DNA of 64,000 bases, from contig NZ_JNUP01000072.1 in NCBI RefSeq assembly GCF_000758165.1, forward strand, positions 102,496 through 166,495, in the 5' to 3' direction. Below the pieces are notes generated by a model. The model made no database searches, was not told the DNA's origin, and worked only from the letters and a program-made list of their open reading frames with translations. This DNA is from Spirochaeta lutea. Its GTDB lineage: Bacteria; Spirochaetota; Spirochaetia; DSM-27196; Salinispiraceae. The position numbers and the translations under genes are program-made. This document shows, in pieces, positions 4,599 through 38,941 of this stretch. How positions within the stretch are numbered: position 1 is the first letter of the stretch; every line of letters starts with the position of its first letter.

Positions 4599-4612
4599 AC
4601 AATCATTGTCCG

Positions 4613-13812: not shown

Positions 13813-13882
13813 GGCCGACATACTACCATACTTCTGTGTAGTCATCATATAGTTTTTTACCCCCCCGGCCGATGTATAGGCT

Positions 13883-14946: not shown

Positions 14947-17589
14947 CTAGCTATCCGAGGAGGTGCTGGAGGATACAACCTCCGGATCTGATGAAGAACC
15001 CGAAGCGCCGCCCTCATCCTCCCGGCCGGAGGGATGACTGGAATTCTTAGCCGTCTTCTTGGCCGTCTGTTTACTCGAACCCGAGGCAGAACCCGATTCA
15101 TCCTTGGCTTCGGCGTTACGCTGCTTATTCCGCTCCTGGAAGAGAATACTCCCCTGACGGAGGGTTACGAAAATATGGCTGTCCGGTCCGAACCTGCCCT
15201 TGAGGATTTCCGTGGCCAAGGGATCTTCAATCTGACGCTGGATTGTCCGCCGGAGGGGCCGGGCTCCGTACTTCACGTCGTAGCCCTCTTCCACCAGGAA
15301 GGCCTTAGCCTTTTTACTCACCTCCAGAATCATCTCCCGTTCAGCCATCCGTTTTTGCACCTCTGCTAAATGGATTTCCAGGATACTTGTGAGATGTTCC
15401 CTCGTAAGGCTTTGGAAGACCACCACCTCATCTACCCGGTTGATGAACTCGGGTCTAAATTGACGTCGGAGCTCGTTCAAGGCGCTGTTTTTTATCTCCG
15501 TGTAGGAAAGCACATTCCCCATGGGCTGAAATCCCAGAGAAGTCTCCCGGGTAATCTCCCGGGCTCCGGCATTGCTGGTCATGATAAGAATGGTGTTTCG
15601 AAAACTGACCTTGTGTCCCAGATTGTCCTGGAGCTCACCCTCCTCCAGAACCTGGAGCAGGATATTAAAGACATCGGGATGGGCCTTCTCGATCTCGTCG
15701 AAGAGAACCACCGAATAGGGTTTTCTCCGGATTTTCTCTGTGAGAAGTCCCCCCTCCTCATAGCCGACATACCCCGGAGGGGCTCCTGTCAGCCGGCTGA
15801 CGTTATGTTTTTCCATAAAATCGGACATATCGATCCGTATTAACGCATCGCTGTTCCCGAAGAGAAATTCTGCCAAGGTTTTCGCCAACAGGGTTTTCCC
15901 TACCCCGGTGGGTCCCATAAAAATGAAGGACCCCATGGGCCGGTTGGGACTGGATAGACCGGTCCGGCTCCGACGGATAGCGGAAGCGATGACCGAAATA
16001 GCCTCATCCTGGGCAATAATCTTCTTATCAAGCTCCTTGTTGATATGCAGAAGTTTTTCGCTCTCGGTCTGGGCAATCCGGGTCATGGGAATGCCGGTAA
16101 TATCCGAGATCACCACCTGAATATCCTCAGCATCCACTATATTTTCTTCGGTCTTCAGGGTGGTTTTCCAAGCGGTTTTGATTTCATCCACCCGTTTTTT
16201 CAGCTTCTGCACCTCATCCCTCACCGCGGCAGCCCGCTCGTAGTTCTGGGAATTAACCAGGGTGACCTTCTCCTGCACCAGTGAGTCGATCTGTTTTTCC
16301 AGATCCTGAATCTCCGTGGGGCGTACGCTGTTTTTAATCCGCTTCCTGGCTCCAGCCTCATCGATGAGATCAATGGCTTTGTCGGGTAAAAACCGGTCGG
16401 CAATGTAGCGGTAGGAAAGCATGGCTGCTACCTCAATGCTGCCGGGGGTATAGCTTACATTATGGTGTTCCTCGTAGCGGTCCTTGATTCCCTGGAGAAT
16501 CTGAATGGTCTGTTCCACCGTCGGCTCGTCCACAATAACGGTCTGAAACCGCCGCTCCAGGGCTGCATCCCGTTCTACGTACTTCTTATACTCGTTCAGG
16601 GTGGTAGCGCCGATACACTGGATTTCTCCCCGGCTCAGGGCCGGTTTGAGCATATTGGAGGCATCAATGGCACCCTCGGCTCCCCCTGCCCCGATGATGG
16701 TATGAAGTTCATCGATGAACAGGATGATGTTGCCCGCTGCCTGAATTTCCTTCATTACACGCTTAAGGCGCTCCTCAAACTCACCCCGGTACTTGGTTCC
16801 GGCAATAACACTGGCCAGATCCAGGGTGAGCACCCGCTTATCCATGAGCACATCCGGGGCTTGGCCGTCAATAATTCGCTGGGCAAGCCCCTCTACAATA
16901 GCGGTTTTACCCACCCCGGGCTCGCCGATAAGAACCGGATTATTTTTGGTCCGCCGGGCAAGAATCTGCACTACCCGCTCAATCTCCCGTTCCCGGCCCA
17001 CCACGGGATCAAGGGTATTACTCTTGGCCATCATGGTTAGATCCCGGCTAAATTCATCCAGGGTCGGCGTGGTTCGTTTGCCTACCGTGGCAGTTCCACC
17101 GCTACGGCGGCGTCCCTGGGGAGAGGTTCCCGCAGACTCGGACGCAAAACCCGACCCGGAGAGTTCTAAGACGATCTGCCGCAGGTTTTCAACGCTTACA
17201 TCGTACTCTTCGAGAAAACGGTTTGTTTCTCCCCCGGGTTCCTTGGCACAGGCCAACAGCAGATGTTCGGTTCCGATGAACTCATGGCCAAGGCTCTTGG
17301 CCTCCTCGGAGCTGTCTTCGAGGACCTTCTTACCCCGCGGGGAGGGTGGAACATCTCCAAAACTGAATCCCCCGCGTTTCCGCGGAATGGCCTTTTCAAG
17401 CTCTATCTGCATTCGGGAAGGGTCAATCATAGACTTCACCAAGGCTTTATACCCTATCCCGCCCCCTTCCTTGAGCAGGGCTAGCATAATGTGCTCGGGT
17501 AATAGTTGATCGCTATGAAAGCGTTTCGCCTCATCTTGGGCAAGTATGGTTAGTACCTTCTGGGCTCGTTGGGTGAGTCCCTTAAACAT
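14947..17589 (-). CDS. clpC: AAA+ unfoldase ClpC
   Basis: Hsp100 unfoldase that feeds proteins to ClpP. The ATG at 17589 is preceded by GGAGG at 6 nt; the in-frame TTG at 17595 touches that site and cannot be the start. Domains of the 880-aa protein: Clp N repeats (1-150), AAA-1 with GEPGVGKT (about 221), a middle region with a UVR-like segment [14 protein letters not shown] (about 440), AAA-2 with GPTGVGKT (about 557), and a ClpP-docking LGF tripeptide (about 685). This layout is ClpC rather than ClpA or ClpB. Unlike most ClpC (about 810-840 aa) it ends in roughly 60 residues of Lys/Ala/Ser/Gly-rich low-complexity sequence. It follows mcsA and mcsB, as in Firmicutes, but no ctsR repressor gene is present. 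The ribosome binding site lies within the end of mcsB. Confidence 0.96.
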
Positions 17590-17591
17590 AT

Positions 17592-18680
17592 TCAACCTCC
17601 AGAAAAAATCCGGCGCAACAGCCGGGACCGCTCTTCTTCCAGTATCGTCACCTTAGCCCGGCCTGTCGATGGTTTTTCTCCATCCGCACCGGAGACGCCC
17701 TCCGACACCGGCATCCCGGACATCCACGATAATACCGCATCCTGGGTTTGAAAAAACGCCGCGCCAATCCTTCCCAGGGGAACATCCAGAATACGCATTC
17801 CCGAGCCCATCCGCACCCAAGAAAGCAGGGATAAACTCTCGGCTAAGGTCATACAACGGCTTTGAGAAATTGTTCCCAGGGATCTCCAAACCTGGTCATC
17901 AAACTCCAGGGCTCCCTGATCATGCCACTCTTCCCGCATCCGTCTCTCATAATGTACCAATTCCAATGCTAGATCAGCAAGGATTTCCAGAAACTCCTCC
18001 TCCTTCTGACCATGGAGGGCCTGACCGGTGAGTCTATACACCCCGGAGGGCAAATCCTGGGAAAAAATCCGGAAGTCGAGAGTCCGGGAACGCAGCACCG
18101 GCAGGAGCTCTTCGAATCCCCTCATACGGCTCATTGCGGGTAAATGCAGCAGAAGGCTGCAGCGCATTCCCAACCCCGCCTCCCGCACCCGGGTTGTCAA
18201 AAAACCGAAGGGGGAGTTAGCGGCGAGGCGAAAGCGGCTATCCAGGGTCGATTCCAGGGCCTTAATCCGGGAAAACGCCCCCTGGATCTGCAGCCCCGGC
18301 TCAAGGGCGAAGGGCTCCAGATGGTCCACATGGTTCACCACCAGCCCGGCGTCTCCAGCCTCCTCCCGGAGGAGAAGCGATTCCGCTGCTCCAGTCTTCC
18401 TGGGAAGCCAACCCAGCATGGCAAGCCATTCCCGTTCCCGCCCTGGGGAACCCAGGGGCTGCCAGGTCATACCGGAAAACATACCCCGCAGTTCAATATC
18501 CATCTCAGACAGAAAGGTCCGCCGCTGTTCCGGATCCATGGAACCCGGAAAGGGATAGGCCTCCAGGTTTCGCGACAGCCGGAGACGGGTGGAAATAACG
18601 ATATCTGACTCCGGTCCCGCCCCGGAAATCCACACCCCGGGTGCACCGGGCCGGCGCAATTGGTTCTCAAGGACTGTCAT
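17592..18680 (-). CDS. mcsB: McsB-like protein, predicted inactive arginine kinase
   Basis: Homologue of the protein-arginine kinase McsB (362 aa from the ATG at 18680; the frame runs further upstream only as a shadow of mcsA). The guanido-kinase fold is recognisable: SDIVISTRLRLSRN (about 25-38) and the RCSLLLHLPA segment are conserved. Key active-site motifs are not. From my memory of B. subtilis McsB, NEEDH with the catalytic Glu is NHVDH here (116-120), SCPTNVGTG with the essential Cys is TTRVREAGLG (about 162-171), and RGIYGEGSEA is FRIFSQDLPS (about 203-212). It probably cannot phosphorylate arginine and may act as a ClpC adaptor or regulator. It overlaps mcsA by 14 bp and ends just before the clpC start. 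Confidence 0.88.
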   Translation of the reverse strand: MTVLENQLRRPGAPGVWISGAGPESDIVISTRLRLSRNLEAYPFPGSMDPEQRRTFLSEMDIELRGMFSGMTWQPLGSPGREREWLAMLGWLPRKTGAAESLLLREEAGDAGLVVNHVDHLEPFALEPGLQIQGAFSRIKALESTLDSRFRLAANSPFGFLTTRVREAGLGMRCSLLLHLPAMSRMRGFEELLPVLRSRTLDFRIFSQDLPSGVYRLTGQALHGQKEEEFLEILADLALELVHYERRMREEWHDQGALEFDDQVWRSLGTISQSRCMTLAESLSLLSWVRMGSGMRILDVPLGRIGAAFFQTQDAVLSWMSGMPVSEGVSGADGEKPSTGRAKVTILEEERSRLLRRIFSGG

Positions 18681-19113
18681 GGTCGTCTCCTGGCAGATCG
18701 TGGGCCCTAAAAATATCCAGAACCATCTGCAATCGGGCCGGATAGGCTCCCCGGTGCACTGAACCCCTGTCCACCCCGTGGATGAGTCGCTGAATAAGGG
18801 GGCCGAATTCATGGTAACAGCCCTGGCATCCTGCCAACCCCGTCGCCCGGAGATGCAGCAGGGTGGTTCCGCATCCCGGACATTGACGATCCAGATCCTG
18901 TTCCTCTTCGGGGTTGAGAAGATCACCGAAGAGATCGCCCACCCGGGGAATAACGGCGCTATCCTCAGGCACGGCACCTGCCCTGATGCTACAGGCCTCA
19001 CAGAGATGAATCTCCCTGCGGGCTGTTCCCTCAACTATATGGATGATCCGCACCGCCGGAGCTGCTTGACAATGCTCGCAGACCCGGGACCGGTTCTCGT
19101 GTTCTTGGTTCAT
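18667..19113 (-). CDS. mcsA: McsA-like zinc-finger protein lacking the UVR domain
   Basis: 148 aa. Four CxxC pairs (C12/C15, C38/C41, C78/C81, C95/C98) match the two zinc-binding modules of McsA, the activator of McsB. The linker VHRGAYPAR corresponds to VHAGKIPKR of B. subtilis McsA as I remember it, but the protein ends about 20 residues later, so the C-terminal UVR domain is absent. AGGAG lies 7 nt upstream of the ATG. It lies between the second ABC permease gene and mcsB, with a 14-bp overlap into mcsB. Given the altered McsB, it more likely stabilises or recruits that protein or ClpC than activates a kinase; this is inference. Confidence 0.85.
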   Translation of the reverse strand: MNQEHENRSRVCEHCQAAPAVRIIHIVEGTARREIHLCEACSIRAGAVPEDSAVIPRVGDLFGDLLNPEEEQDLDRQCPGCGTTLLHLRATGLAGCQGCYHEFGPLIQRLIHGVDRGSVHRGAYPARLQMVLDIFRAHDLPGDDHDSP

Positions 19114-24668: not shown

Positions 24669-26411
24669 TTACCGGGTCTGAGCCAGCCTGGCGGCATTTC
24701 CATAGTCTATAATATGCACGATTGCATTAACAATTGATGCCCCTGCAAGGCCGATTCCCAAATTTCTTGCGGTGTAGAGGCTGTTTGCCCGGTTCCGAAG
24801 GGAGGTCGTAAGGGGATCAGCGGCCCCCGTGTCTGGCCGGGACTGGAGGGTCCTGGCCGCCTCGTCGTAGAAGCCGTTCAGGATCAGGGGTACCGCCACC
24901 CCGACAATGGTGAAACCCAGGGCACCGTAGAGACGGTCCCGCTTATACTTCACCTGGGCCTCCCAGTCTATCCGGTCATCCAGGAGGCTCACCTGAACAT
25001 CTACCGGTTTCTGGGGTTCTACCTGATCCCTCGTCAGCACCAGGGTCCGGGGGTGATAGCCTTGGTGTCCCAGGGTTAGCACACTGGGAAGAGAGGGCAG
25101 GTCAACGTATCCCGGAGCGGTTCCTGCGGGGTGGGAGTTGTTCAAAATCCAGGCTTCACCGGGCAGGGAGTCGATCCTGGCGGCGGCAATGAGCCGGGGT
25201 TGGAGGATGATCCGGAGCTGGGGAAAACCATCTTCTTGAACCGTGATACTCCGTCGGCTGGGGCGAAACTCCTGGCGGGACACCTCAATTTCGTGGGTTC
25301 CAGGGGGTAAAAACCGGGTTTGGTAGGACCCGATACCCACCTCCTCGCCGTTTATCTTGATACGCCCCCCCCGGGGAATGGATTGGATGGAGATCCCTGC
25401 CCAGGGCAGTCCGCTGATTACCCGCGCCGGCAGGTATGCCCGCTCCCTGGCCAGGCTGGGAATCTCATCCAATAATCCGTCTATCTCGTCGTAATAGACT
25501 ATCCGGTTCTCCAGGGCGTTATACAGGGCCACCCGGGCGGAGTAATAGGGGCTTCCTCTGAAAAACGGTTCAAGGCTTCCTAGCAGTATCCACCACACCC
25601 CCTGCTTCTCCGACAATCGGGCAAGGGCATCCAATAGAATGGTCGAATCCTGGGAGAATCCCTGGCTCTCCAAAATCGATGCAATGTCGCCGGGTATCTC
25701 CCGAAGCAGGTCCGCTTCCCCCTGCACCAGGGGGATGGCCTTCATCAGATCCCGGGCCATGGTCCTCCCCTCCCGGTTCAGAACCCACAGCTGGGCCAGG
25801 GCATCACGGATCTGCTTTTCCAGGTTCTCCTGGTTCCCCGGGGCTGTTCCGAGACGGATCTGCTCAGTTTGGGAATACAGGCGGTCAAGGTTTCCAATAA
25901 TGCTCCGCCTCAGGGATGCGCAAAGCCGGTCTGCCAGAGCTTCCTGCCAGGCGGGCTGGGCCCCGGGCGAAACCAGGGGGATCTGATCTACCTCGGAGAG
26001 CAGTACCTCTGGAACGCGCAGGGAGGTGTATGCCCGGGTTGCGGTGCGGGTCATCCACTCATCGGGGTACCGCGGGGGTTGAAAGAGGGGCAGGGATAGA
26101 ATACGCAGGCTGGCGGTGAGGGGGTGTTTTGCCCATTCCTGGGCCAGGCTTTTCTCCAGGGCTGCACGAGCCTGTTCCATCCGGGGTTCATCACCGGGAT
26201 GGGCTCCCTGGTAGTACCTCTGTGGAAGGGAGGACTCAGAGGCTTGGGATACATCCTGAGGGGGCGGTGCGGCTTCCGGTGCTTCAGCTAGGCCGGGGGA
26301 ATCCGAGCCCCCGGGGACCGTCGCTTCCGGCTGGTCGGCTGATACCAGGGGCATTGAAATCACCATAACACCAAAAACCCACAGGGCTGATAGGAAATAC
26401 CGAACCCTCAT
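24669..26411 (-). CDS. PEGA-domain exported protein with C-terminal membrane helices
   Basis: 580 aa from the ATG at 26411, which overlaps the response-regulator stop (ATGA); the frame is open further upstream but only across that gene. A signal peptide (residues 1-26, ending SADQ) leads into a Pro/Glu-rich segment, a helical region of about 250 residues, and a PEGA domain (about 345-410: GRIKINGEEVGIG, PPGTHEIEVSRQEFRPS). PEGA domains are surface or periplasmic beta-sandwiches. Two hydrophobic stretches (about 490-512 and 550-572) suggest anchoring near the C-terminus. No enzymatic motif is visible. Related multi-part exported proteins with PEGA domains are common in spirochaetes. Co-expression with a CheY-like protein is clear from the overlap; a functional link is unknown. 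Confidence 0.82.
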   Translation of the reverse strand: MRVRYFLSALWVFGVMVISMPLVSADQPEATVPGGSDSPGLAEAPEAAPPPQDVSQASESSLPQRYYQGAHPGDEPRMEQARAALEKSLAQEWAKHPLTASLRILSLPLFQPPRYPDEWMTRTATRAYTSLRVPEVLLSEVDQIPLVSPGAQPAWQEALADRLCASLRRSIIGNLDRLYSQTEQIRLGTAPGNQENLEKQIRDALAQLWVLNREGRTMARDLMKAIPLVQGEADLLREIPGDIASILESQGFSQDSTILLDALARLSEKQGVWWILLGSLEPFFRGSPYYSARVALYNALENRIVYYDEIDGLLDEIPSLARERAYLPARVISGLPWAGISIQSIPRGGRIKINGEEVGIGSYQTRFLPPGTHEIEVSRQEFRPSRRSITVQEDGFPQLRIILQPRLIAAARIDSLPGEAWILNNSHPAGTAPGYVDLPSLPSVLTLGHQGYHPRTLVLTRDQVEPQKPVDVQVSLLDDRIDWEAQVKYKRDRLYGALGFTIVGVAVPLILNGFYDEAARTLQSRPDTGAADPLTTSLRNRANSLYTARNLGIGLAGASIVNAIVHIIDYGNAARLAQTR

Positions 26412-26806
26412 AGCCCCAATCCCGGTCCGGTTTTCCCTCGAGCCCGCTCCAGGGCACTGACGACCCGTTGGGGGCGGAATGGTTTTACGATGTAATCCCT
26501 GGCTCCTATCTGAAGGGCCCGAATGATGAGGGATTCCTCGGAGAGGGTTGAGCACATGACCACCCTGGCGGCGGGATCGTAGGCGAGGATTTTCTTCAGG
26601 GCGGTAATTCCATCCATAACAGGCATGGTAATGTCGAGAAGCACCAAATCCGGTTCAAGCATGACGTAACTTCGCACGCCTTCCCTACCGTTGGATGCGG
26701 TTCCGGCTATGGCAAACCCGCCTGACTCAGCAGCCTTGGCCATTAAATCACGCATAAAACCGAGATCATCAATGATAAGCACCCCTGGTTGCTTCTCTTC
26801 TGCCAT
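26408..26806 (-). CDS. Stand-alone CheY-like response regulator
   Basis: 132 aa, a single receiver domain with no output domain. The acidic pocket is IIDD (12-13), the phosphoacceptor Asp is in LVLLDITMPVMDG (about 58), the switch Ser/Thr is in MCSTLSEES (about 86) and the Lys is in VKPF (about 108). No histidine kinase gene is nearby. Its stop overlaps the start of the PEGA-protein gene by 4 bp. The sequence resembles chemotaxis or twitching-type CheY proteins rather than DNA-binding regulators. The target is unknown; flagellar switch, a remote kinase cascade or a diguanylate cyclase are all possible. Confidence 0.92.
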   Translation of the reverse strand: MAEEKQPGVLIIDDLGFMRDLMAKAAESGGFAIAGTASNGREGVRSYVMLEPDLVLLDITMPVMDGITALKKILAYDPAARVVMCSTLSEESLIIRALQIGARDYIVKPFRPQRVVSALERARGKTGPGLGL

Positions 26807-26936: not shown

Positions 26937-28065
26937 CTACTGGTTCGATCGAACGCTTCCGCCGGTTTTACGGGCCCATTCCTGCTTGAGAAATGCCTCG
27001 ATAAAGGGATCAAGATCCCCGTCCATTACGGCTTGGATGTTCCCGGTTTCGGTCTTGGTACGGGCATCCTTGACCATGGTATAGGGTTGAAACACATAGG
27101 ATCGGATTTGGTTACCCCAGGAAATATCCTTCTTCTCTGCGGCGGATTCCTGGCGTTCTTTATCCCGCTGCTCCTCGTAATACTCGTACAGCCGGCTGCG
27201 GAGCATCTTCATGGCAAAATCGCGGTTTTTATGCTGACTACGTTCGTTTTGACATTGAACCACGATTCCCGTCTCAAGATGGGTTATCCGCACCGCCGAA
27301 TCGGTTTTATTAACATGCTGTCCTCCGGCTCCTCCGGCCCGGTAGGTATCAACCCGGATATCCTCCGGCTTGATAGTCACATCAATGTCGTCATCCAATA
27401 CGGGCGAGACATACACCGATGCAAAGGAGGTATGCCTGCGTCCCCCGGAGTCGAAGGGACTGATACGAACCAGTCTATGCACCCCCGTCTCGCCTCGGAG
27501 GTAGCCGAAGGCGTAGTTCCCGGTAAGCTGGAGGGTGACGGATTTAACCCCGCCCTCGGCCTCCTGGTAATCCAGGGTCTGAATTCCATAGCCGTGCTGT
27601 TCTGCCCACCGGCTGTACATCCGAAGCAGCATGGCTGCCCAATCGTTTGCCTCGGTTCCGCCTGCACCCGCATGGACGGTCAGGAATACTGGATTATCAT
27701 CCTGGGGGCCGTTAAGAAGCTCCAGGATCCGCAGCTTTTCATAGCCCATCCGGGCTTCGTCATAGAGCTGCCGGATTTCTTCTTCCTGATCCCGGTCATT
27801 TTCGGAAACGGCCAGGTCGTAGAGGGTTCGGAGGTCTTCCATATCCCGGGTCAGGGCTTCCCAGGGTTCAATGCGGTCGCGGTGACGCTTTATATCCTGG
27901 AGAATTTTTTCTGCCCGTTCCCTGGAATCCCAGAATGCGGGATCTGCTGTTTTTGATTCTAACTCTGCAATGGTATGCCGTATCCCCGCGGGGTCAAAGA
28001 TCCCTCCAGGTGCTGGTAATCTGCTGGTCTAGCTCAGCGATGGGGGCTTGAAGATCCTCAAGCAT
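26937..28065 (-). CDS. prfB: Peptide chain release factor 2, +1 programmed frameshift
   Basis: Releases nascent chains at UGA and UAA. The reading frame begins at the ATG at 28065 (MLEDLQAPIAELDQQI) and meets an in-frame TGA at 27996-27994 after 23 codons. Shifting +1 at CTT-TGA-C continues as DPAGIRHTIAELESKTADP and on to 26937, giving about 375 aa, the normal RF2 length. Domain motifs include ISPFDSGGRRHTSF, which contains the SPF stop-codon tripeptide, and the catalytic GGQ in RAGGAGGQHVNKT (about 246-248). GAGGAG lies upstream of the ATG, with a promoter at 28125-28153. UGA recognition by RF2 itself allows autoregulation, as in E. coli. Confidence 0.97.
27994..28007 (-). promoter_or_regulatory. 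prfB +1 recoding site
   Basis: On the minus strand GGAGGGAT is followed by CTT TGA C. The Shine-Dalgarno-like GGAGGG lies immediately upstream of the slippery CTT, as in E. coli prfB, and the internal TGA is the regulatory stop. Confidence 0.95.
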
Positions 28066-29600: not shown

Positions 29601-31655
29601 CTACCGTTTGTCCCGTTTGTCCCTGGAAAATCGCAGCGCATAGGTACCCTGCCAGGTTTCACCGGCCTGTAGGTTGAGCTCGGTCCGAATAACCAGGGTG
29701 GAGGATTGGTAGGAGAGATGGGTTCCGTGTTTATCCCGGTGTCTGGTTAAGGAGGGAAAGCTCCAAATCGGGGCTGCCTTATCAAGCTCTACACGGATGG
29801 AATTCTTGTTATGCAGGTCGTCAAATACCATGCTCTGGGTATGTTCCAGAGATATGGGATCCGGGCCGACCTCTTCTTTCTGACCACCGGCTGCAATCCT
29901 GAAGATGCGAAGATCCGATACATCCCGGGAGGCAAAGGCGAGATTGAGCTCCGGAGCGAACACCGTCGATAAGGTATCCGTGCCGGTGTTGGTGAGGCTG
30001 TATTGCACCGAGAGCTTACCCTTTTCGAAGCTGTAGCTCTTGCGCATTTCTAACCCCCGTTGATCTCCCGAAGAGGACTCTACCAGCCCCTCTGTAACAA
30101 GCTCAAGCTTGAGGGTTTTTGCCACATCCGTGGTCCGATCTTGGATGGTGAAGATCTGATGTATCAGACGGGACTTGGGTTCGAAGCTGCCGTTCCGGAA
30201 GGATTCAAAATCCTGGCTCGGGGAAATAAAATGATCTACGAAACATTTTTTCGGGTACACATCGTACCCGAATTGTTCATCCTGGCTGGTATGGTTCGGT
30301 TCAGGATGGCGAGCGAGGGTGTCAAGGTAGTTCCAGTGGACGGGAAGATGATCCAACTCGAACAGAATGCCCCCCCGAAGATGTACATAGGCGTTGAGGT
30401 CATTTCCCTGAAACAGACATTCCTCCAGGCCGTCCATATCTAAGTCGTTGGTGACGATGGACGGGGCGAAGATCCCCTGCTCCCGGGTCAGGAGCTCGGC
30501 TGAGATTAATGCCGCATAACTGGGTTTCCGGTAGGAAGGATTGTAGATGCCGCCGCTGGGACCGAACCAGAACGGGACATTGCTCTGTCCCTTCCAAAGC
30601 TCTTCCTTGGCGGCCTGCTTTCTATATCGGTCGCCCCGCACCTGATTGACCAGGCTATGAATGAACTGCATCTTTCCGTAGAGGAGATTCCCCTCCTGAT
30701 AGCGTGCCAGGGCCTGGCGGAACATCCCGCTGTAGTAAAAACCGGTGCGGCCAAGTCCGGGCATGGAGAGGTTTTCATAGGCCGCTAAATCACCCTCAGA
30801 CTTATAGCGCCGGAGAAGGGTCTTAAACGCCGTGGGAGGAAAATACACCCTGCCCCGGGCCTCGGATAGCCGGGATAACCTGCTGGGGTGCCAGGTGGAT
30901 ACATCTCCCCGGTTCTGCGCCTCAATGATTCCCTCAAACAACTGCTCCAGCCAACGGCTGCGGTCTTCATCCCCCAGGGAATCTCCTGCTTGGCCATCCC
31001 ATAACAGGGTAATAACCGGATCCCCGGGCTGATCAAGATAGGAGGGGAAGGATCCCAGCATAGTTTCTATGAATTCATCCACACCGGTAGTAAAAAGCTG
31101 ATTCGTAACAGCGGTGTGAAGGGGAAACACCAATAGGGTCTTGCCTTGGTACTCGGTTAACAGAGGCGCATAGATCCCCCGGTGCTCAACTCCGGCTTCG
31201 ATGAACTGCTCCTCCCCCAGAAAACTAAACTCCATTCCTGCCGAACGAAAGGCCGATGGATAGTCGGGTTCCCAAATCTGTTCCGGGATCCATACTCCCC
31301 GGGGACGGCTGCCGAACTGCCGCCGAATGTAGGTAGTCAGCATCTCGATTTGCCCAATGGTATCGGTCTTCGGAATGAGGGAGTAAATGGGTTCGTAGTA
31401 TCCACCCCCCAGCAATTCAACCTGGCGCCGTTTTACAAGCTCCCCGAGAACATCTAGGAACTCGGAATGATTCTTCTCGATCCAGCCTAGCAGGATCCCG
31501 GAATAGTACAGGGTTGCCTTCAACCTTGGAAAGCGGTAGATAGCCTTGATGAAGGGGCGGTAGTAGCGTTGGTATATTTCTTCTAGTTCCGAATCACTCT
31601 TACCAAGCGGTACTGTGTTTACGGTTCCCATGAGTAGCTGAATCGATTTCCTCAT
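29601..31655 (-). CDS. GH57-like protein with degenerate catalytic motifs
   Basis: 684 aa, similar along its length to GH57 4-alpha-glucanotransferases (N-terminal (beta/alpha)7 barrel, then DUF1925/DUF1926-type regions such as AELNLAFASR and RVELDKAAPIWSFP). Compared from memory with the Thermococcus litoralis enzyme, motif I HNHQP is VNTVP (about 12-16). The nucleophile region GFYEP is kept as GYYEP (about 85). HDDGEKFG is LWDGQAGD (about 215), keeping an Asp but losing Glu-Lys, and the late YWHG is FWFG. The nucleophile Glu and a candidate acid remain, but substrate-binding histidines are gone. It may act on an unusual glucan, bind glycan, or be inactive. TTATAT-17-AATCAT ends 6 nt before the ATG and there is no ribosome binding site, so a leaderless start is possible. 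Confidence 0.85.
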   Translation of the reverse strand: MRKSIQLLMGTVNTVPLGKSDSELEEIYQRYYRPFIKAIYRFPRLKATLYYSGILLGWIEKNHSEFLDVLGELVKRRQVELLGGGYYEPIYSLIPKTDTIGQIEMLTTYIRRQFGSRPRGVWIPEQIWEPDYPSAFRSAGMEFSFLGEEQFIEAGVEHRGIYAPLLTEYQGKTLLVFPLHTAVTNQLFTTGVDEFIETMLGSFPSYLDQPGDPVITLLWDGQAGDSLGDEDRSRWLEQLFEGIIEAQNRGDVSTWHPSRLSRLSEARGRVYFPPTAFKTLLRRYKSEGDLAAYENLSMPGLGRTGFYYSGMFRQALARYQEGNLLYGKMQFIHSLVNQVRGDRYRKQAAKEELWKGQSNVPFWFGPSGGIYNPSYRKPSYAALISAELLTREQGIFAPSIVTNDLDMDGLEECLFQGNDLNAYVHLRGGILFELDHLPVHWNYLDTLARHPEPNHTSQDEQFGYDVYPKKCFVDHFISPSQDFESFRNGSFEPKSRLIHQIFTIQDRTTDVAKTLKLELVTEGLVESSSGDQRGLEMRKSYSFEKGKLSVQYSLTNTGTDTLSTVFAPELNLAFASRDVSDLRIFRIAAGGQKEEVGPDPISLEHTQSMVFDDLHNKNSIRVELDKAAPIWSFPSLTRHRDKHGTHLSYQSSTLVIRTELNLQAGETWQGTYALRFSRDKRDKR

Positions 31656-31747: not shown

Positions 31748-32317
31748 TTACATAAATAGCGGCACAAAAACCAGAGAGTCTAATAGAGAGAATACCAGGG
31801 AGAGCAGCCCCAGGGTGATCAGCTCTCCGGGCAGCCCTGCCATGGAAGACGGCAGTCTCTGTAAGCGCATCCGCTCCTTGATCGTATGGAGAATAAAATT
31901 CACAAACCCCAACCCCAGGGCGGTAGAAACCGCGCCGATTACCATACCACCGTAGGTTAGCTCCTGGTATTGCACGAGGAGAGAAAACCCCAGAACCAGC
32001 ATGGCAAGACTTCGGGGATACCGCAGAATCCGGGGCAGGGCATCTATCCAGCGGGTCTGGGCTGCATATAACCCGGTAACGCCGGGCAGCAACACAATCA
32101 GGGACATGCCCCCGATTCCCAGGGGTGTTAATATCAAACTGGTTATTACCCAGGATAGGGACCCGAAGGCTATGAGCACTACGGTTACAGAGCCCATCAG
32201 GATGGCGAGGGATCGCAGACTCCAATTTGTTCTCAATCCGAAATCCGCCCCCAGGCCGAAGGAGAGCAGGATGTTTTCTATGAGGATGAAGTAAAGCAAT
32301 AATGCGAGGTAACTCAT
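31748..32317 (-). CDS. rnfA: RnfA-like membrane protein without cluster cysteines
   Basis: 189 aa, six predicted membrane helices, matching RnfA/NqrE by its C-terminal signature (KERMRLQRLPSSMAGLPGELITLGLLSL) and overall layout. In classical RnfA one Cys in GLCP and one in TNCAVLG bind, with RnfE, a [2Fe-2S] cluster inside the membrane. Here the first site reads GLGADFG and the second region reads VQYQELTYG, and the protein contains no cysteine anywhere. The ATG overlaps rnfE by 4 bp. It is the last gene of the operon; rnfB, which follows rnfA in many clostridial-type operons, is missing, and a GH57-like gene comes next. It probably still assembles with RnfE and RnfD as a scaffold or ion path. 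Confidence 0.9.
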   Translation of the reverse strand: MSYLALLLYFILIENILLSFGLGADFGLRTNWSLRSLAILMGSVTVVLIAFGSLSWVITSLILTPLGIGGMSLIVLLPGVTGLYAAQTRWIDALPRILRYPRSLAMLVLGFSLLVQYQELTYGGMVIGAVSTALGLGFVNFILHTIKERMRLQRLPSSMAGLPGELITLGLLSLVFSLLDSLVFVPLFM

Positions 32318-32937
32318 TTCTCCTCCTGATTTTCGCTTCGGTCTTCGCTGTCAGCAGGTGTTGGTCTGGTGGTGAACCGTCGATGCAGAGCAAGTCCGAC
32401 CCCCAATAGCAGGAAGATGCTCCCGGGAATTAGAAAGACTCCGAGCCGGGGATTCACAGCCTCAGGAATCACGGTCAGGGACTCCTCAGCCAACCCGGGA
32501 AACGATATCGTCCCCAGGGCCAATACCTCCCGAAGGAACCCAAAGAGCAAACTCAGTCCGCTGATCTTGAGCAGGGCAGGAACCACTACCCCGATCCGGG
32601 ACATGAATCCGTTCTGCCACCCAGGGCCTCGGTCCCGGGGCTGAAACAGCATCAACACTACCAGAGCGCTGAGGGGAAGGGCGATCCCCAGCCCCCCGAC
32701 GATTCCGGGACTCACAATCTCGAGCACCGCCATCCATTGCACATGGACGAGACTCAGAATAATGGAATCGCTGATCATTCCGCTCTGTCGGGGAAATAAG
32801 CGGTAAAACAGGTAACTCAATAGGAGCCCGAACACACCCGAAAGGAGCATGACGAGGCTCAGGGTGAGGGCGTACCCAAAGCCAACCTCCAGGAGAAGGA
32901 TGGGAAGAAGAACCGTTATCCAGGAAATTGAAACCAT
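32314..32937 (-). CDS. rnfE: RnfE-like membrane protein without cluster cysteines
   Basis: 207 aa with about six membrane helices and the RnfE/NqrD landmark FGFLREVLALGTISF (about 135-150; classical GAIREFLGxGT). The two family cysteines are absent: the first helix reads LLLEVGFGY and the second site reads LPLSALVVLMLF, and no cysteine occurs in the whole protein. The N-terminus is shorter than usual, and the C-terminus has a charged tail (TPADSEDRSENQEEK). It overlaps rnfG by one base and rnfA by 4 bp. With RnfA it would form the usual inverted-repeat dimer but without a [2Fe-2S] cluster. Confidence 0.87.
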   Translation of the reverse strand: MVSISWITVLLPILLLEVGFGYALTLSLVMLLSGVFGLLLSYLFYRLFPRQSGMISDSIILSLVHVQWMAVLEIVSPGIVGGLGIALPLSALVVLMLFQPRDRGPGWQNGFMSRIGVVVPALLKISGLSLLFGFLREVLALGTISFPGLAEESLTVIPEAVNPRLGVFLIPGSIFLLLGVGLALHRRFTTRPTPADSEDRSENQEEK

Positions 32938-33488
32938 TACCGCACCTCCCGGAGTTGGGACACCACAGTATCCCGGAGAATACCAATCCTCCGATAGAGC
33001 ACCTGAACCGGCCGCTCCGCCAGTGCAGGAAGCAGCTCCGGCAGCTGCCCCCGGGGCCCCAGGATCCGATCGATCTGGGGAGGAACCACCCCTCCGAGGA
33101 ATTCAACCCGAGTCAAGCTGCCCTCGGGGGTGAACCCCAGGAATACCTGGACCGGGTACCGGTTCAAGAGGATCCGGCTTAGGACAATCAGCTGTCCGTC
33201 GGCTCGGCGGAACACCCGTTGTATGGAATCATCGAATCCCTGAAGGCTGGAGGTCAGCTCTTGCACTGCCTGTCCCTCGGTTACGGACATAAGACTCTGT
33301 TGCTCCAGCTCCTGGCTGCTCTGGTGAGCCAAGGGTAAGAGCACTACCCCGGCGAGGATAATCAGGAGGATTCCTAATCCCCCGGCCGAAATAATCCGGA
33401 GTACCAGAAAAATCTGCTCCCGCTGTACCCCCGGCGGAGACGATGAACCACCGCTCCCCGTTTCCTTGGTACCTGTAGAACCGCTCAT
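32937..33488 (-). CDS. rnfG: Reduced RnfG-like protein without the flavin-attachment motif
   Basis: 183 aa. A Ser/Gly-rich cytoplasmic N-terminus (1-25) is followed by one membrane helix (about 28-52) and a small extracytoplasmic domain. Position between rnfD and rnfE and this topology identify it as RnfG/NqrC-like. The SGAT motif, whose Thr carries covalent FMN in the family, is absent: the corresponding C-terminal region ends in LYRRIGILRDTVVSQL. The domain is also shorter than usual. Sequence similarity alone is weak, so the assignment relies on context. It may serve only as an assembly subunit. It overlaps rnfD by 4 bp. Confidence 0.72.
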   Translation of the reverse strand: MSGSTGTKETGSGGSSSPPGVQREQIFLVLRIISAGGLGILLIILAGVVLLPLAHQSSQELEQQSLMSVTEGQAVQELTSSLQGFDDSIQRVFRRADGQLIVLSRILLNRYPVQVFLGFTPEGSLTRVEFLGGVVPPQIDRILGPRGQLPELLPALAERPVQVLYRRIGILRDTVVSQLREVR

Positions 33489-34600
33489 ACCATCCTCCGG
33501 GTTTGTACACCGAAGACCCGGGGTACCACATAAATATCAAGCATCGGAACCAGAATCATGGCCACTAACGCGGCAAACCCCGCCCCTACTCCCGGGCTCC
33601 CGAATAACCGGAATACCAGGGTGAGGCCGGCGGCTACTACCGCGTAGATTACCTGTCCCAACCTTGTCTGGGGTGCACTGGTTAAATCCGGTAGAAATAT
33701 GAATCCAATGAACAGCACACCCCCGTTTATCAGATGAAACAGGACATCCCCGGTGAACAGCCGTCCCGTGGATTCCAATCCCCCAAAAACGAACATGCCA
33801 AGGCCGAAGGTAAGAAGGTACCAGGCAGACACCCTGCCGTATACAGCCCTCCGGCTGATAAGAAGTATGGAACATACCAGTATCAATAGAATGGATATCT
33901 CACCCATGGCTCCGCCCTGGAATCCTAAAAATCTTCCTGCGTACCCTTCAGGCAGGTTTATACCGAGATCATTCAGTAATCCCCTGTTCAGCCATTCGGT
34001 CACCGAGGCATCCACCCCGTGGGTTTCACCGCTGGCCGTCATGGCCTGAAGAGGACTTCGGCTAATCGTTCCGGAGAGTCCGACCTGCCTCAGGTACGAA
34101 AGGGTGGTTCCGCCGGTCACGGCATCGACTCCCCCGGAACTTCCCAGGATGGTTCCGCCCGGGAAGGTCCATTGCGAAAAAGCCAGAGGCCAGGCGATCA
34201 TGGCAATAGCCTGGCCGCCCAGTTGGGGACTCATCCACATCCCGGTGCTGCCGCCGAAGCCCCAGCGTATAATAACCTGGGCGAACACCCCGGCAGCCAA
34301 GGGAATCAGGGGATGAATCCCCGGGGAAAAGAGCAGTCCCAGGAGCAAACCGCCCGAAAGGCTCTCCATCCATGCTATCCGGGAAGGTGAACCCCTCCGT
34401 AACCGAGCTAGGACCACCTCGCTACCCGTGTACCCTAGGACCGCTGCACCCAGCACCCAGAGGGCCTGCAATCCAAACAGGACAAGCCCCCAGGTAGAGA
34501 GCAGACCGGCCACCAGGAGCCGGGTCAGGAAAAGTCCGGACTTTGCCAGGGTTCCGTTGATTTGGGGGCTGGTAAAAAACGATTGTCGTATGTCGCCCAC
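33485..34600 (-). CDS. rnfD: RnfD-like membrane protein
   Basis: 371 aa, about ten membrane helices, RnfD/NqrB family. The flavinylation region reads DAVTGGTTLSYL (about 159-170), where classical members have DAVSGATPLS; the Thr corresponding to the FMN-bearing residue is present but the surrounding motif is altered. The later GAMGEIS segment (about 225) matches the family GSxGExS. It is the only membrane subunit here that could still hold a flavin. Whether an ApbE-type transferase would accept GGTT is uncertain, and no apbE gene lies in the window. The gene starts 2 bp after rnfC and overlaps rnfG by 4 bp. Confidence 0.92.
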   Translation of the reverse strand: MGDIRQSFFTSPQINGTLAKSGLFLTRLLVAGLLSTWGLVLFGLQALWVLGAAVLGYTGSEVVLARLRRGSPSRIAWMESLSGGLLLGLLFSPGIHPLIPLAAGVFAQVIIRWGFGGSTGMWMSPQLGGQAIAMIAWPLAFSQWTFPGGTILGSSGGVDAVTGGTTLSYLRQVGLSGTISRSPLQAMTASGETHGVDASVTEWLNRGLLNDLGINLPEGYAGRFLGFQGGAMGEISILLILVCSILLISRRAVYGRVSAWYLLTFGLGMFVFGGLESTGRLFTGDVLFHLINGGVLFIGFIFLPDLTSAPQTRLGQVIYAVVAAGLTLVFRLFGSPGVGAGFAALVAMILVPMLDIYVVPRVFGVQTRRMV

Positions 34601-34602
34601 TG

Positions 34603-35949
34603 TTAGTCCTTCCTTTCACCCAGACTGTCCCGGCCCCGGATGAGATTTTGGGTCAGGGATATGTCGGCGGGACAAATATAGGAACAGATACCGCAGCCGG
34701 TACAGGCGTGAAGTCCCTCCCGCCAAGCGCGCTCGGGGTTTCCGTGGTCCAGCAGTTTATACAGCCGCATAGGATTCAGACGCATCGGGCAGTGCAGGGC
34801 GCATAACCCGCATTGAAAACAAGCCTCGGCACCCGGGGGTTCCGCCTGTCCCGGCCGGGGAAAAAGCCGTGATTCAGTCAATAGGATGAGGGAGTCATAG
34901 CCCTTGGTCAGGGGAGTATCTGCGCTTTCCATACCGACTCCCCGGAGAGGTCCACCGTACACCACCCGGGCGGGAGTTTCCTTCACCCCTCCGGCGTCAC
35001 CCACAATATCACCTACCCTGGTGCCGATCCGAGCTTTTACTACCCTGCTGGCTGAAAGGGCGTCACCCGCCAGGGTCACATACCGCTCGATCATGGGTTT
35101 TCGTAGTGCTACCGCTTCATAAATACCGAACAGTACCGGAACATCCAAAATGAACACCCCGTGTTGCTCAAGGTTTACCGACCGATGAAACTCTTTTCCC
35201 AGAATCGCCTGGGTCAGGAGGACGGGTTCAGCCTGGGGATAATCCTCCCGGACCCGGCGGATCTTTACCGCGAGCCCCCGAGCCCTCAGCTCAGCCTTTA
35301 AGGACCGCAGTTCCCGCCCCAACCCCGAGGGTACGGCAGCATGAATCCGCGCCCTGGGAAAGAGTTTTGACAAGATGCTGCATCCCTGGGCCAGGGCTGC
35401 GGGCTTCGTTTTAAGCAGCTGCTCATGGGTTTTGGAAAGCGGTTCATTTGGGCTGAAGTTGATAATCACCGCACCCTGGCCCTGGAACCCGCTCATATGC
35501 CGGAGGCGGGTTATGAACGACCGGTCCTGATCCCGTATATCCTCTACGCCCATTTCAACCAGGGTGTTGATCAGCTCTGCTGGTTCAAGACTCTGCCAGT
35601 CCACAGGCTCGGGAACCCTGCCGAGGATATCAAACTCACCTCCGGTTTTAATAACCACACCCTGGGAGGGAATGTTACCTGGAAGAGTGATCTCGGTAAT
35701 CGCCAATACCCGCCCGGGCACCGGGGCATGAACTGCCACCCCATCCGGCGGGGGCGAACCGATAATGGCCCCCTCCCGCACCTGGTCTCCCGGGGAGACC
35801 AGGCATCGGGCATGTCCAGCATGAAGCTGATACAGGGGAACGACAACCTGATCGGGAAGTGACGTTTCCCAATCCTGAGCCACCTCATGTTCTCCTGGCA
35901 ATATTGTACCGGAAAGGCCGCGCCAGCCCATTCCTAAAACCACACTCAT
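34603..35949 (-). CDS. rnfC: RnfC-like iron-sulfur protein lacking the NADH/FMN loop
   Basis: 448 aa, peripheral cytoplasmic subunit. The N-terminal barrel-sandwich region (APVPGRVLAI), the central SLBB-like segment (RVVTLAG-type IERYVTLAGD) and two ferredoxin-type motifs are clear: CFQCGLCALHCP (about 374-385) and CTGCGICSYICP (about 414-425), each able to bind a [4Fe-4S] cluster. The glycine-rich GLGGAGFPT loop that binds NADH/FMN is absent (the region reads MGVEDIRDQDRSF), NGAECEPY is replaced by NFSPNEPL, and the YPxGGAK segment reads YPQAEPV. It therefore probably does not oxidise NADH; another donor such as ferredoxin is conceivable. The ATG directly follows the stop of the upstream gene. 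Confidence 0.92.
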   Translation of the reverse strand: MSVVLGMGWRGLSGTILPGEHEVAQDWETSLPDQVVVPLYQLHAGHARCLVSPGDQVREGAIIGSPPPDGVAVHAPVPGRVLAITEITLPGNIPSQGVVIKTGGEFDILGRVPEPVDWQSLEPAELINTLVEMGVEDIRDQDRSFITRLRHMSGFQGQGAVIINFSPNEPLSKTHEQLLKTKPAALAQGCSILSKLFPRARIHAAVPSGLGRELRSLKAELRARGLAVKIRRVREDYPQAEPVLLTQAILGKEFHRSVNLEQHGVFILDVPVLFGIYEAVALRKPMIERYVTLAGDALSASRVVKARIGTRVGDIVGDAGGVKETPARVVYGGPLRGVGMESADTPLTKGYDSLILLTESRLFPRPGQAEPPGAEACFQCGLCALHCPMRLNPMRLYKLLDHGNPERAWREGLHACTGCGICSYICPADISLTQNLIRGRDSLGERKD

Positions 35950-37491
35950 TTATACCCTCACCTGACCAGCTAACCCGTGTCTATACCTGTAGGAAGGTTC
36001 GGCTAACCGTCTGACAATCCTCCAGAGCATGGGCAGCCAGAGCAGAGTCATCCATACCAGCCCCCACATCCTGAACAGATTTCCCGTGGAGTATACCCTC
36101 TCCATTCCCGGCAGGACAACCCGGAGACTTCCCCCGTTTTGCAGGATCAGATTACCCGGCATCAGGGGATTCGAACGGATGAACCCCTCGGCAGCTACCA
36201 CCCACTGATCATCAAACCGGTCAATTTCCTGGGTCCTTTCCTCGTAACCCTCGTCGGTCAGGGTGAACCGCGGCACCGTAAGGGTGTAGCCCGGAGTAAC
36301 AGCCCGGTAATCCGCCCCGTAGAGGTACCACTGCTGAAAGAAGTAATGGGCCACCATTTCATCCTGGTCTAGGGTGATTTGACCGCCTGAGAGCTCGGGC
36401 TCAGCCGAACTATCCGTCCCCCGAGGCGCGGACAGTAGAATCACCCCCAACACCATAAGCACCACCACTCCGCCTCCTGAAAGCAGCCGTCCCCAGGAAC
36501 CTCGGTCCGGCACGAGGCGAAGGTACTCAAAGGGCCGGTGCTCCCGGCGCTGCCACATCCGAAACCGCAGGAGATACACCGCCCCCAGGCAGCCGGGGGT
36601 TACCAGTATCCAGGCTGCCACCGCCAGGACCTGGGCTGCCCCGCCCAGGGCAGCCAGAACCAACCCGGCCAACACCCCGGCAAGCCCGGGGAACCACAGG
36701 GGCACCACCCGGCTGCTCAGGGACATCCTGGACATCCGGGTGATGAGACCGAAAAGAAACACACCGGGGCTGCGATGACGGCTCCTCCACCAGGAACGGG
36801 AGGCCCTGCCGCGGGAGAAGCCCTGTTCAATACCCGAAATCCAGACTCCCAGCCAAAAGGCCCCGGCAGCAAGACTGAGGAGCCCGGACGCACCCACCAC
36901 CACGGATAGGGGCAGAAGCAGGATAAGGGGAAGCAGGGGCTCGGGTCTACCGATCCCGGTAAACCCCCAGAGTCCGGCTGCAGCTCCCAGAATCAGCAGT
37001 ACCATGGGCACCCCTCCGGGGGTGCTTGTACCCGGCATCACCGGCGCCCAGCCGTTCCAGGGCTGGGAAACCCTGGTCTCCCGGGGAAGGGTCCGGTTAA
37101 TTATTCGATTGGCCTGGGGCCAGACCGATTCAGGCACAAACAACCGGCGGACGCCGGAGGCGGGATGGACAAACAGGTTTTGGAGTTTGCTCAGATAGGG
37201 TGTCCACCGGGGATCGTCGGTTCCGAGAACAGCGACCTCCCGAAGGGGCCGAAGACCTACCTGGGTAAAGGTATTGAAATACACCTGGGCGGTGGAATAG
37301 GACAAGACATTCCCTAGTCCTGCCTTGGAAAGGGCCCCGTTTATGGCATGCTCCTGTTCGGCATCAGCTGCCAGGTACATCTCCCAGCCCTGGAGCTCCG
37401 GGGCTTCCTGGGCTCGGATGCCGGAAACCGGTAGGATGAGAAGAGTTAGTAAAAGCAGGAGACTGCAAGACCTCAGGGAGCAGCGATTCAC
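35950..37491 (-). CDS. Polytopic membrane protein encoded ahead of rnfC
   Basis: 513 aa, GTG start at 37491, 12 bp after the DUF212-like gene. A signal peptide (about 1-27, ending IRAQ) precedes an extracytoplasmic domain of about 140 residues. Five or six membrane helices lie between about 165 and 365, then a second beta-rich extracytoplasmic domain (about 375-470), and a final helix (about 475-495). I do not recognise a family; no redox, nucleotide or metal motif is visible. Its stop codon abuts the rnfC start, so co-expression is nearly certain. It could be an extra subunit or assembly factor of the atypical Rnf-like complex, which is inference from position. Confidence 0.8.
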   Translation of the reverse strand: MNRCSLRSCSLLLLLTLLILPVSGIRAQEAPELQGWEMYLAADAEQEHAINGALSKAGLGNVLSYSTAQVYFNTFTQVGLRPLREVAVLGTDDPRWTPYLSKLQNLFVHPASGVRRLFVPESVWPQANRIINRTLPRETRVSQPWNGWAPVMPGTSTPGGVPMVLLILGAAAGLWGFTGIGRPEPLLPLILLLPLSVVVGASGLLSLAAGAFWLGVWISGIEQGFSRGRASRSWWRSRHRSPGVFLFGLITRMSRMSLSSRVVPLWFPGLAGVLAGLVLAALGGAAQVLAVAAWILVTPGCLGAVYLLRFRMWQRREHRPFEYLRLVPDRGSWGRLLSGGGVVVLMVLGVILLSAPRGTDSSAEPELSGGQITLDQDEMVAHYFFQQWYLYGADYRAVTPGYTLTVPRFTLTDEGYEERTQEIDRFDDQWVVAAEGFIRSNPLMPGNLILQNGGSLRVVLPGMERVYSTGNLFRMWGLVWMTLLWLPMLWRIVRRLAEPSYRYRHGLAGQVRV

Positions 37492-37503
37492 CGGTACATC
37501 ATC

Positions 37504-37992
37504 CTAGAGTATACTGAAGCCCAGAGCGATGAATAATCCCAGGAGCATTCCCACTATGACTTCCAGGGCAGTATGACCGTGCACCTCTTTGACGGGAGCA
37601 AACTCCGCCCGGCCCTCTTCCTGGAGCTGCTGTCCCAGGGCATTTAGGGCTCGGGCCTGCAGACCCGCAGCCCTGCGGACCCCCAGAGCATCCCGAATGG
37701 TGAGTATGCCGTAGAACAGGGCCAACCCGAAGAGGGACGAGTTAATCCCCTCCTGAAATCCGATGGCTACAGCCAGGGCGGTAACAAGGGAGGAATGGCT
37801 GGAGGGCATGCCACCGGTTTTCCACAGAAGGGTCTCAACCAGAAGCCCCCCCCTGGTGCGCTTACGGCGGAATATGTCTATAATAGTCTTGAGCAGCTGA
37901 GCGATGAACCAGCTGAAGAAGGCAGCGAGGAAGACTGGACTTGCGAATAAACTGAAGGCGTTCGCCTCTGTTCGAGCAACCATGATCACCAA
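37504..37992 (-). CDS. DUF212/YuiD-like divergent PAP2 membrane protein
   Basis: 162 aa (ATG at 37992; an ATG at 37980 is also possible), four or so membrane helices. GGMPSSHSSLVTALAV (about 60-75) and EVHGHTALEV (about 138-147) are the conserved segments of this divergent acid-phosphatase/haloperoxidase-related family, whose activity is not established. A cytoplasmic helical loop (about 105-130) separates them. It is the first gene of a run that continues, after 12 bp, through the polytopic protein into rnfCDGEA. It is divergent from the P-loop protein gene, with only 58 bp between them. A lipid-phosphate role is possible but unproven. Confidence 0.85.
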   Translation of the reverse strand: MVIMVARTEANAFSLFASPVFLAAFFSWFIAQLLKTIIDIFRRKRTRGGLLVETLLWKTGGMPSSHSSLVTALAVAIGFQEGINSSLFGLALFYGILTIRDALGVRRAAGLQARALNALGQQLQEEGRAEFAPVKEVHGHTALEVIVGMLLGLFIALGFSIL

Positions 37993-38050: not shown

Positions 38051-38941
38051 ATGGGTATACGACAGCTATTTGAGACGGTAAATCGCGATTGGACTCGGTT
38101 GGTTTGGCACATGCGGGGGTTGAAGGTCTACGCCCTGGTGGGAAAAAGTGGCACGGGAAAGAGTTTCCGGGCCCGGCTCCTCGCAGAGAAGCTCAAGATT
38201 GACGCCCTTATTGACGACGGCCTTCTCATCAAAGACCAGAAGATCATTGCCGGAAAGTCGGCAAAAAAAGAAGCGGCCTATCTGGCTGCGGTAAAGACCG
38301 CCCTCTTCACCGATCCAAACCACCGGGCACAGGTCAAAAAAGCCCTGGAATCCAGCAAGATAAAGCGGGTCCTGCTCCTTGGAACCAGCGACCGGATGAT
38401 TCAAAAGATCTGCGAGATCCTCCAGCTGCCAAAACCCACAAAGATCATTCAAATTGAGGATATCGCCACCGCCGACGAGATAAATACAGCCATCCACTAC
38501 CGCAAACATCACGGAAAACACGTAATCCCCGTACCGGCCATTGAGGTGAAAAAAAACTACCCGAAAATTATGGCGGATTCCCTGAAGATCATGCTGCGCA
38601 GCGGATTCGGGATGTTCAAACGCAGCAAACTCTACGAAAAAACCGTTGTCCGACCGGAGTTCAGCAACCGGGGTGTAATCAACATATCCGAAGCGGCCCT
38701 TTCCCAAATGATCATGCACTGTGTGGCCGAACATAGCCCGGGCTTTAAAATCCACAAGCTGGTGGTCCGCCAGGACGGTACCGGCTACTCCATGAATCTC
38801 CACCTGGACGTACCCTTCGGCCGTGAACTGGCTGCCTCCATCCACGATCTGCATACCTACATAATAGAGAAGCTTGAACAATACACGGGAATCATTGTGG
38901 ACGAGCTGAACATTACGGTGAATAAGATCATTGATAAATGA
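38051..38941 (+). CDS. P-loop protein with an Asp23-like C-terminal domain
   Basis: 296 aa. Residues about 25-165 contain Walker A GKSGTGKS (about 31-38) in an AAA/kinase-like fold with VLLLGTSD. The C-terminal 90 residues (GVINISEAALSQMIMHCVAE, then LHLDVPFGRELAASIHDLH, VDELNITVNKII) have the beta-alpha pattern of Asp23/Gls24 envelope-stress proteins. The combination is unusual and I know no named family; a spirochaetal family is likely. There is no signal peptide or membrane helix. TTGTCA (38014-38019), 18 bp and GTAAAT end 7 nt before the ATG, and there is no ribosome binding site, fitting leaderless translation. Nucleotide binding is likely; catalysis is unknown. Confidence 0.82.
   Translation: MGIRQLFETVNRDWTRLVWHMRGLKVYALVGKSGTGKSFRARLLAEKLKIDALIDDGLLIKDQKIIAGKSAKKEAAYLAAVKTALFTDPNHRAQVKKALESSKIKRVLLLGTSDRMIQKICEILQLPKPTKIIQIEDIATADEINTAIHYRKHHGKHVIPVPAIEVKKNYPKIMADSLKIMLRSGFGMFKRSKLYEKTVVRPEFSNRGVINISEAALSQMIMHCVAEHSPGFKIHKLVVRQDGTGYSMNLHLDVPFGRELAASIHDLHTYIIEKLEQYTGIIVDELNITVNKIIDK

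Follow-up and report, generated by a model that had tools for sequence, protein, structure and literature searches.

The Rnf annotation is taken everywhere to mean an energy-conserving redox pump, and a 64,000-nucleotide (nt) stretch of the Spirochaeta lutea genome (contig NZ_JNUP01000072.1, positions 102,496 to 166,495; hereafter the window, on which all coordinates are given unless stated) raises the question of what such genes do when the parts of the pump are missing. The window carries five genes in the order rnfC-D-G-E-A, preceded by a gene that we call X (Table 1). In our preferred reading, to which we give a probability of roughly 0.6, these genes encode a repurposed Rnf, one of several such cases, that no longer works as an ion pump driven by ferredoxin or reduced nicotinamide adenine dinucleotide (NADH), and that is kept as an RnfC-RnfD membrane assembly together with X. 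For the wider statement our odds are slightly better than even: a non-redox membrane machine would have arisen from Rnf by repeated cofactor loss, with X in the lineage of the window, without X in Treponema pallidum, and as a cofactor-free fusion in all Borreliaceae. The proteins are kept without almost all of their electron-carrying parts, and would therefore have a different job now.

The cofactor residues were compared at aligned columns in a matrix of 110 loci (the window and 109 others). The window RnfC keeps 8/8 of its Fe-S cysteines, and its two loops for NADH and flavin mononucleotide (FMN) are lost (GGF reads RDR, and E.E reads P.E). All four [2Fe-2S] cysteines are gone (D and M at the RnfA columns, L and V at the RnfE columns), and the protein at the RnfG position has neither the SGAT flavinylation motif nor an aligned Thr. 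RnfD retains the flavinylation Thr (TGGT, aligned), a putative site of FMN attachment judged from sequence, while its riboflavin ligands N, N and D (roles taken from PMC10643135 and PMC11889175) have become M, S and D, with the aspartate kept. The positions of the Na+-gating ion pair mapped in Acetobacterium woodii (RnfE R67 and E115, RnfA E88; PMC11889175) hold G, R and T. These comparisons bear out the cofactor losses listed in a preliminary description of this DNA, and the riboflavin Asn residues are added to the list. Cysteines or an SGAT at shifted positions were considered and rejected: RnfA, RnfE and the G-position protein contain no Cys at all, and the losses fall at aligned columns.

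No open reading frame (ORF) for RnfB lies between rnfA and the GH57 gene in the window, and the only rnfB of the genome belongs to a separate, intact operon, rnfBCDGEA on contig C46; an nqrBCDE operon (C42) and ApbE are likewise encoded in this genome. An NqrF-type ORF was not found among the window operon genes (ORF list plus Pfam and NCBIfam searches). Because there is no RnfB, no RnfA/RnfE cluster and no RnfG flavin, and because the riboflavin site is damaged, the window has no known electron route into or across the membrane, and a continuous transmembrane electron path cannot, as far as sequence tells, be drawn from known cofactors. We infer that the window complex is not a redox-driven pump.

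The operon is nevertheless Rnf-derived and sits at a locus common to the class Spirochaetia. The landmarks on which the preliminary description based true Rnf/Nqr ancestry are in place (DAVTGGTTLS at RnfD 159-168, FLREVLALGT at RnfE 134-143, ERMRLQRLP at RnfA 148-156), and in Pfam/NCBIfam profile searches the homology is far above chance for RnfC and RnfD and clear for RnfA, with all scores under the curated NCBIfam cut-offs for true RnfABCDGE subunits. For RnfE, Pfam (E=0.5) and a profile of intact RnfE give only weak scores, but a profile of the remaining stripped RnfE proteins, with the window sequence left out, matches it at 8e-16. The G-position protein has no sequence match to the RnfG profile (E=4.7); the nearest structures to its AlphaFold2 (AF2) model are RnfG/NqrC chains (VIA Z 8.8 to A. 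woodii RnfG, 9eri_G, over 166 residues), a result that is partly circular, since the alignment behind the model included intact RnfG sequences. As first described, the five ORFs are all intact and tightly coupled, with overlaps of 4 nt (D/G and E/A) and 1 nt (G/E) and a C-D gap of 2 nt. The C-D-G-E-A order given then stands as well, and the operon extends further than was recognised: neighbouring genes from X through rnfA touch or overlap, which makes the overlooked X part of the same operon.

Loci in relatives were found through RnfD and through GH57 alignment, followed by gene calling (a search of the genome contigs with RnfD alone gave no match; the GH57 alignment did retrieve loci). The neighbourhood DUF212-X-rnfCDGEA(B)-GH57 is conserved through the class. 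Some 30 loci are complete and have all cofactor sites, mostly with X in front (X-C-D-G-E-A-B), and others form a reduction series in which B, or both G and B, are lost, down to X-C-D alone beside GH57 (L040, L051, L065, L076, L081). Stripped loci like that of the window are found in a Salinispira-like sister (L053, genome G002), in Alkalispirochaeta (L108 and relatives) and in Treponemataceae. The sister has intact ORFs and lacks the same cofactor sites as the window, in line with the earlier view of a kept rather than decayed operon. Three loci of the Alkalispirochaeta group (L108, L110, L207) are mosaic, with the RnfA/RnfE Cys lost and a shortened RnfG that has an SGAT motif, and there is thus no fixed order of site loss. 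The Treponema gene at the G position encodes a one-helix protein of 140-160 amino acids (aa) that matches the N-terminal region of RnfG only weakly, and one locus (L101) has rnf fragments only. The ancestral locus probably had X followed by a full set of Rnf genes, and the class offers a natural series from the full pump to a cofactor-free complex.

On a tree of the neighbouring GH57 proteins the stripped state requires 8 changes, at least 5 of them forced by well-supported branches, and the window and its sister pair at 99. Since GH57 is a neighbour and not an rnf gene, this count is independent of rnf divergence; it assumes that GH57 and the rnf genes travelled together, and four loci flagged for long branches (L210, L211, L189, L056) were not used for the main conclusion. 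The ratio of nonsynonymous to synonymous substitution rates (dN/dS) of rnf genes is 0.05-0.34 in other reduced lineages, i.e., purifying selection. Several lineages, the family of the window among them, have thus separately lost RnfB as the point of electron entry, the [2Fe-2S] cluster of RnfA/RnfE, the flavin of RnfG and the NADH/FMN site of RnfC, and the proteins stayed under purifying selection. The preliminary description had treated the stripping as a single case; it is found repeatedly in the class, most extremely in Borrelia.

A homologue of X stands directly before rnfC in most loci, complete or stripped. Because it precedes rnfC even in complete operons, the association of X with Rnf is probably older than the stripping. 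X has no Pfam/NCBIfam family match, and its matches (homologues of about 510 aa) were found only within the class Spirochaetia. According to the AF2 model, it has a signal/transmembrane helix, two confident non-membrane domains (residues 35-142 and 370-460) that are probably periplasmic, and about six transmembrane helices. The non-membrane domains, a lipobox in the Borrelia homologue and the DUF212 neighbour at most hint at the envelope.

The reduction goes furthest in Borreliaceae, where RnfC and RnfD are fused into one protein of about 770 aa in all 36 of the 36 genomes searched. The RnfC profile match stops where the Fe-S domain would start, RnfD comes next, and the Fe-S columns hold 0/8 Cys in 9/9 fusion copies read; the RnfC Fe-S domain would be dispensable, because Borrelia has lost it. 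DUF212 and X lie in front of the fusion, and an RnfA-like protein (E 1e-3 to 1e-10) followed by prfB lies 3' of it. Gene order and strand are the same as in the window, whose prfB product matches the neighbour of the Borrelia fusion at 2e-113, and a PEGA-domain protein just downstream of prfB in both (window 24669-26555; Borrelia L175:9451-10860) extends the common synteny. In Borrelia the fusion has a dN/dS of 0.11-0.16, the A-like gene 0.11-0.19 and X 0.08-0.17, compared with 0.08-0.11 for prfB. Neither FMN_bind nor ApbE nor RnfB was found in the two Borreliaceae genomes checked, and the Borrelia proteins thus survive with no recognised cofactor site. Posey and Gherardini are said to have found in 2000 that Borrelia does not need iron, and it is this reportedly iron-independent genus that retains Rnf-derived genes without such a site. 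In B. burgdorferi B31, X is presumably BB0071 (the gene-number mapping is our assumption), a 'putative lipoprotein' gene that would correspond to the lipoprotein-like X before the RnfC-RnfD fusion; what differs from the window is that RnfC and RnfD are fused and the Fe-S motif is gone. Hypothetical Borrelia genes (the X lipoprotein, a 773-aa protein and its 186-aa neighbour) can thus be recognised as Rnf-derived. Larval ticks yielded no bb0071 transposon mutants (PMC6516651). In the part of the literature covered, no Rnf-derived complex was described for BB0072/BB0073 or under Borrelia Rnf.

In T. pallidum, where tp0151 is rnfD (PMC11371664) and Rnf is still drawn as an ion pump in papers up to 2025 (PMC7512555, PMC11717252), the orthologous locus (L199) is stripped like the window and reads DUF212-C-D-E-A-GH57. 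The genome used (G119) fits T. pallidum, with its rnfD at the tp0151 position (PMC7162541). RnfC has the 8 Fe-S Cys, RnfD lacks SGAT, RnfE and RnfA lack the aligned Cys, and neither a G ORF above 100 aa nor X was found at the locus. ApbE and two FMN_bind proteins are encoded outside the locus, and no RnfB was found in the genome. The published 'noncanonical RNF-type redox pump' is a flavin-driven ion pump, whereas the genes lack RnfB, an operon G, the RnfA/RnfE Cys and the RnfD SGAT; the gradient model is thus directly affected and has become testable.

Compared with the canonical complex (RnfABCDGE of A. woodii, Clostridium tetanomorphum and Azotobacter vinelandii), the window shares homologous C, D, E and A in the CDGEA order, a putative G by position and predicted fold, the two RnfC [4Fe-4S] motifs and the RnfD FMN Thr, and many loci orthologous to it are complete Rnf. 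It differs in having no RnfB, [2Fe-2S] Cys, RnfG FMN site or RnfC NADH/FMN loops, in its broken riboflavin site and lost Na+-gating pair, and in X as an extra candidate subunit. Na+-NQR (NqrABCDEF) offers a known precedent: it goes back to an rnf duplicate from which rnfB and the RnfC cofactors disappeared, with RnfC becoming the cofactor-free NqrA (PMC4014512). Nqr, however, gained NqrF, kept the B/C flavins and the D/E [2Fe-2S] cluster and stayed a redox pump, whereas the window has lost those cofactors with no recognisable replacement. In the part of the literature that was covered, no account of a cofactor-free Rnf came up.

If the complex is a repurposed Rnf, electron entry and cofactors would have been lost while a function borne by X and an RnfC-RnfD platform outlived the pump. 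RnfC-RnfD (plus RnfE and RnfA where present) would assemble in the membrane with X, and the selected function would reside in the conserved non-membrane domains of X, which probably face the periplasm. Our best guess is that X is anchored and held in position by RnfC-RnfD, and that the state of the cytoplasm is coupled to X by conformation; the resulting role in the envelope could be structural, gating or transport, and the RnfC Fe-S domain may be kept for folding or redox sensing. Several points weigh against this picture. Outside Borrelia, all full-length RnfC copies that were read have the eight Fe-S Cys without exception, and RnfD frequently retains its FMN Thr/Ser, so that some redox use may survive in these members; non-canonical cofactors may also be present, the comparison being one of sequences. 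The link between X and RnfC-D is not absolute, as T. pallidum keeps C-D-E-A without detectable X, and X persists without RnfC-D in one locus (L191, G007:C1:1209500-1222500) that reads DUF212-X-GH57 at 3789-7907, with no rnf genes between. The X model has no significant match in the PDB: the best Foldseek hit has E=0.5, and the VIA Z scores, at most 8.4, may reflect only a common arrangement. In addition, the GH57 tree was made by a quick method and has some long branches, and the dN/dS values come from other lineages, the relatives of the window being too divergent for a direct estimate.

The invariant Fe-S Cys would also suit a shortened electron conduit that runs from the RnfC clusters through the RnfD flavins to an X-linked periplasmic acceptor with no ion pumping, and so would the RnfD FMN Thr/Ser, last riboflavin Asn and Asp kept by X-C-D-only lineages and the ApbE of most genomes tested. 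We consider such a conduit possible and on balance unlikely, given that the window has substitutions at two riboflavin ligands and lacks the NADH/FMN site of RnfC (donor entry and membrane crossing are unclear), that the RnfD Thr is missing in many Treponema, and that Borrelia keeps the proteins with neither a recognised site nor ApbE. The ion transporter suggested in the preliminary description, here a non-redox channel or secondary transporter built on RnfD and RnfE/RnfA, appears doubtful: the window does retain all membrane subunits and NqrB resembles urea and ammonium transporters (PMC10643135), to which the RnfD fold is related, but the Na+-gating residues are not kept, some lineages drop RnfE and RnfA entirely, and A. 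woodii RnfD is reported not to transport Na+ (PMC11889175). It is very improbable that the window proteins form a hybrid pump with RnfB, RnfG or RnfA/RnfE supplied in trans, even though the genome carries intact rnf, nqr and ApbE, as the RnfA/RnfE Cys must sit in the same dimer that is stripped, and T. pallidum and Borrelia keep the stripped locus without RnfB and without a recognisable second RnfA/RnfE set. Ongoing decay of a redundant operon, or an assembly error, is hardly credible; parallel gene losses, the fragments at L101 and the absence of rnf at L191 would agree with it, and the intact coupled ORFs, conserved order, purifying selection, fusion in every Borreliaceae genome searched and stripped sister genome all speak against it.

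Table 1. Features of the conserved locus and cofactor sites in the window
Feature	Position	Strand	Evidence or state
DUF212 (divergent PAP2) gene	37504..37992	(-)	PF02681 E=6.5e-42; opens conserved locus; syntenic in most relatives including Borrelia
Gene X, 513 aa membrane protein	35950..37491	(-)	no Pfam/NCBIfam family; homologue directly 5' of rnfC in most relatives
rnfC, 448 aa	34603..35949	(-)	TIGR01945 5.7e-63, PF13375, PF01512, Fer4
RnfC FMN/NADH glycine-loop position (relatives GMGGATFPTH), window VEDIRDQDRSFITR	35506..35547	(-)	lost
RnfC ECEPY-loop position, window IINFSPNEPLSK	35431..35466	(-)	lost
RnfC first [4Fe-4S] motif CFQCGLCALHCP, aa 377-388	34786..34821	(-)	retained
RnfC second [4Fe-4S] motif CTGCGICSYICP, aa 416-427	34669..34704	(-)	retained
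rnfD, 371 aa	33485..34600	(-)	PF03116 9.8e-44, TIGR01946 1e-25
RnfD riboflavin-site segment FGGSTGMWMSPQLGG	34214..34258	(-)	two ligand Asn replaced by Met, Ser
RnfD putative FMN-attachment motif DAVTGGTTLS	34097..34126	(-)	Thr retained
RnfG-position protein, 183 aa, without SGAT	32937..33488	(-)	position and predicted RnfG/NqrC-like fold
rnfE-like, 207 aa, zero Cys	32314..32937	(-)	8e-16 against stripped-RnfE profile
rnfA-like, 189 aa, zero Cys	31748..32317	(-)	TIGR01943 1.8e-10; 3.5e-13 against intact-RnfA profile
GH57 glycosidase/glucanotransferase	29601..31655	(-)	PF03065/PF09094/PF09095; conserved downstream neighbour; marker for finding the locus elsewhere
prfB, peptide-chain release factor	26937..27842	(-)	PF03462/PF00472; synteny marker common to Borrelia

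Other genes in the window include a divergent neighbour of the locus (38051-38941, 296 aa) with weak AAA/ABC ATPase and Asp23 matches, all under curated cut-offs, a pair of adjoining GH94 phosphorylase-type genes (4613-9597), neighbouring genes for A-type and B-type subunits of gyrase/topoisomerase IV (10103-12013 and 12013-14169, minus strand), and a protein with an ATP:guanido phosphotransferase catalytic domain (17592-19034) adjoining a Clp-type ATPase with a UVR motif (14947-17595), which together form a McsB/ClpC-like pair.

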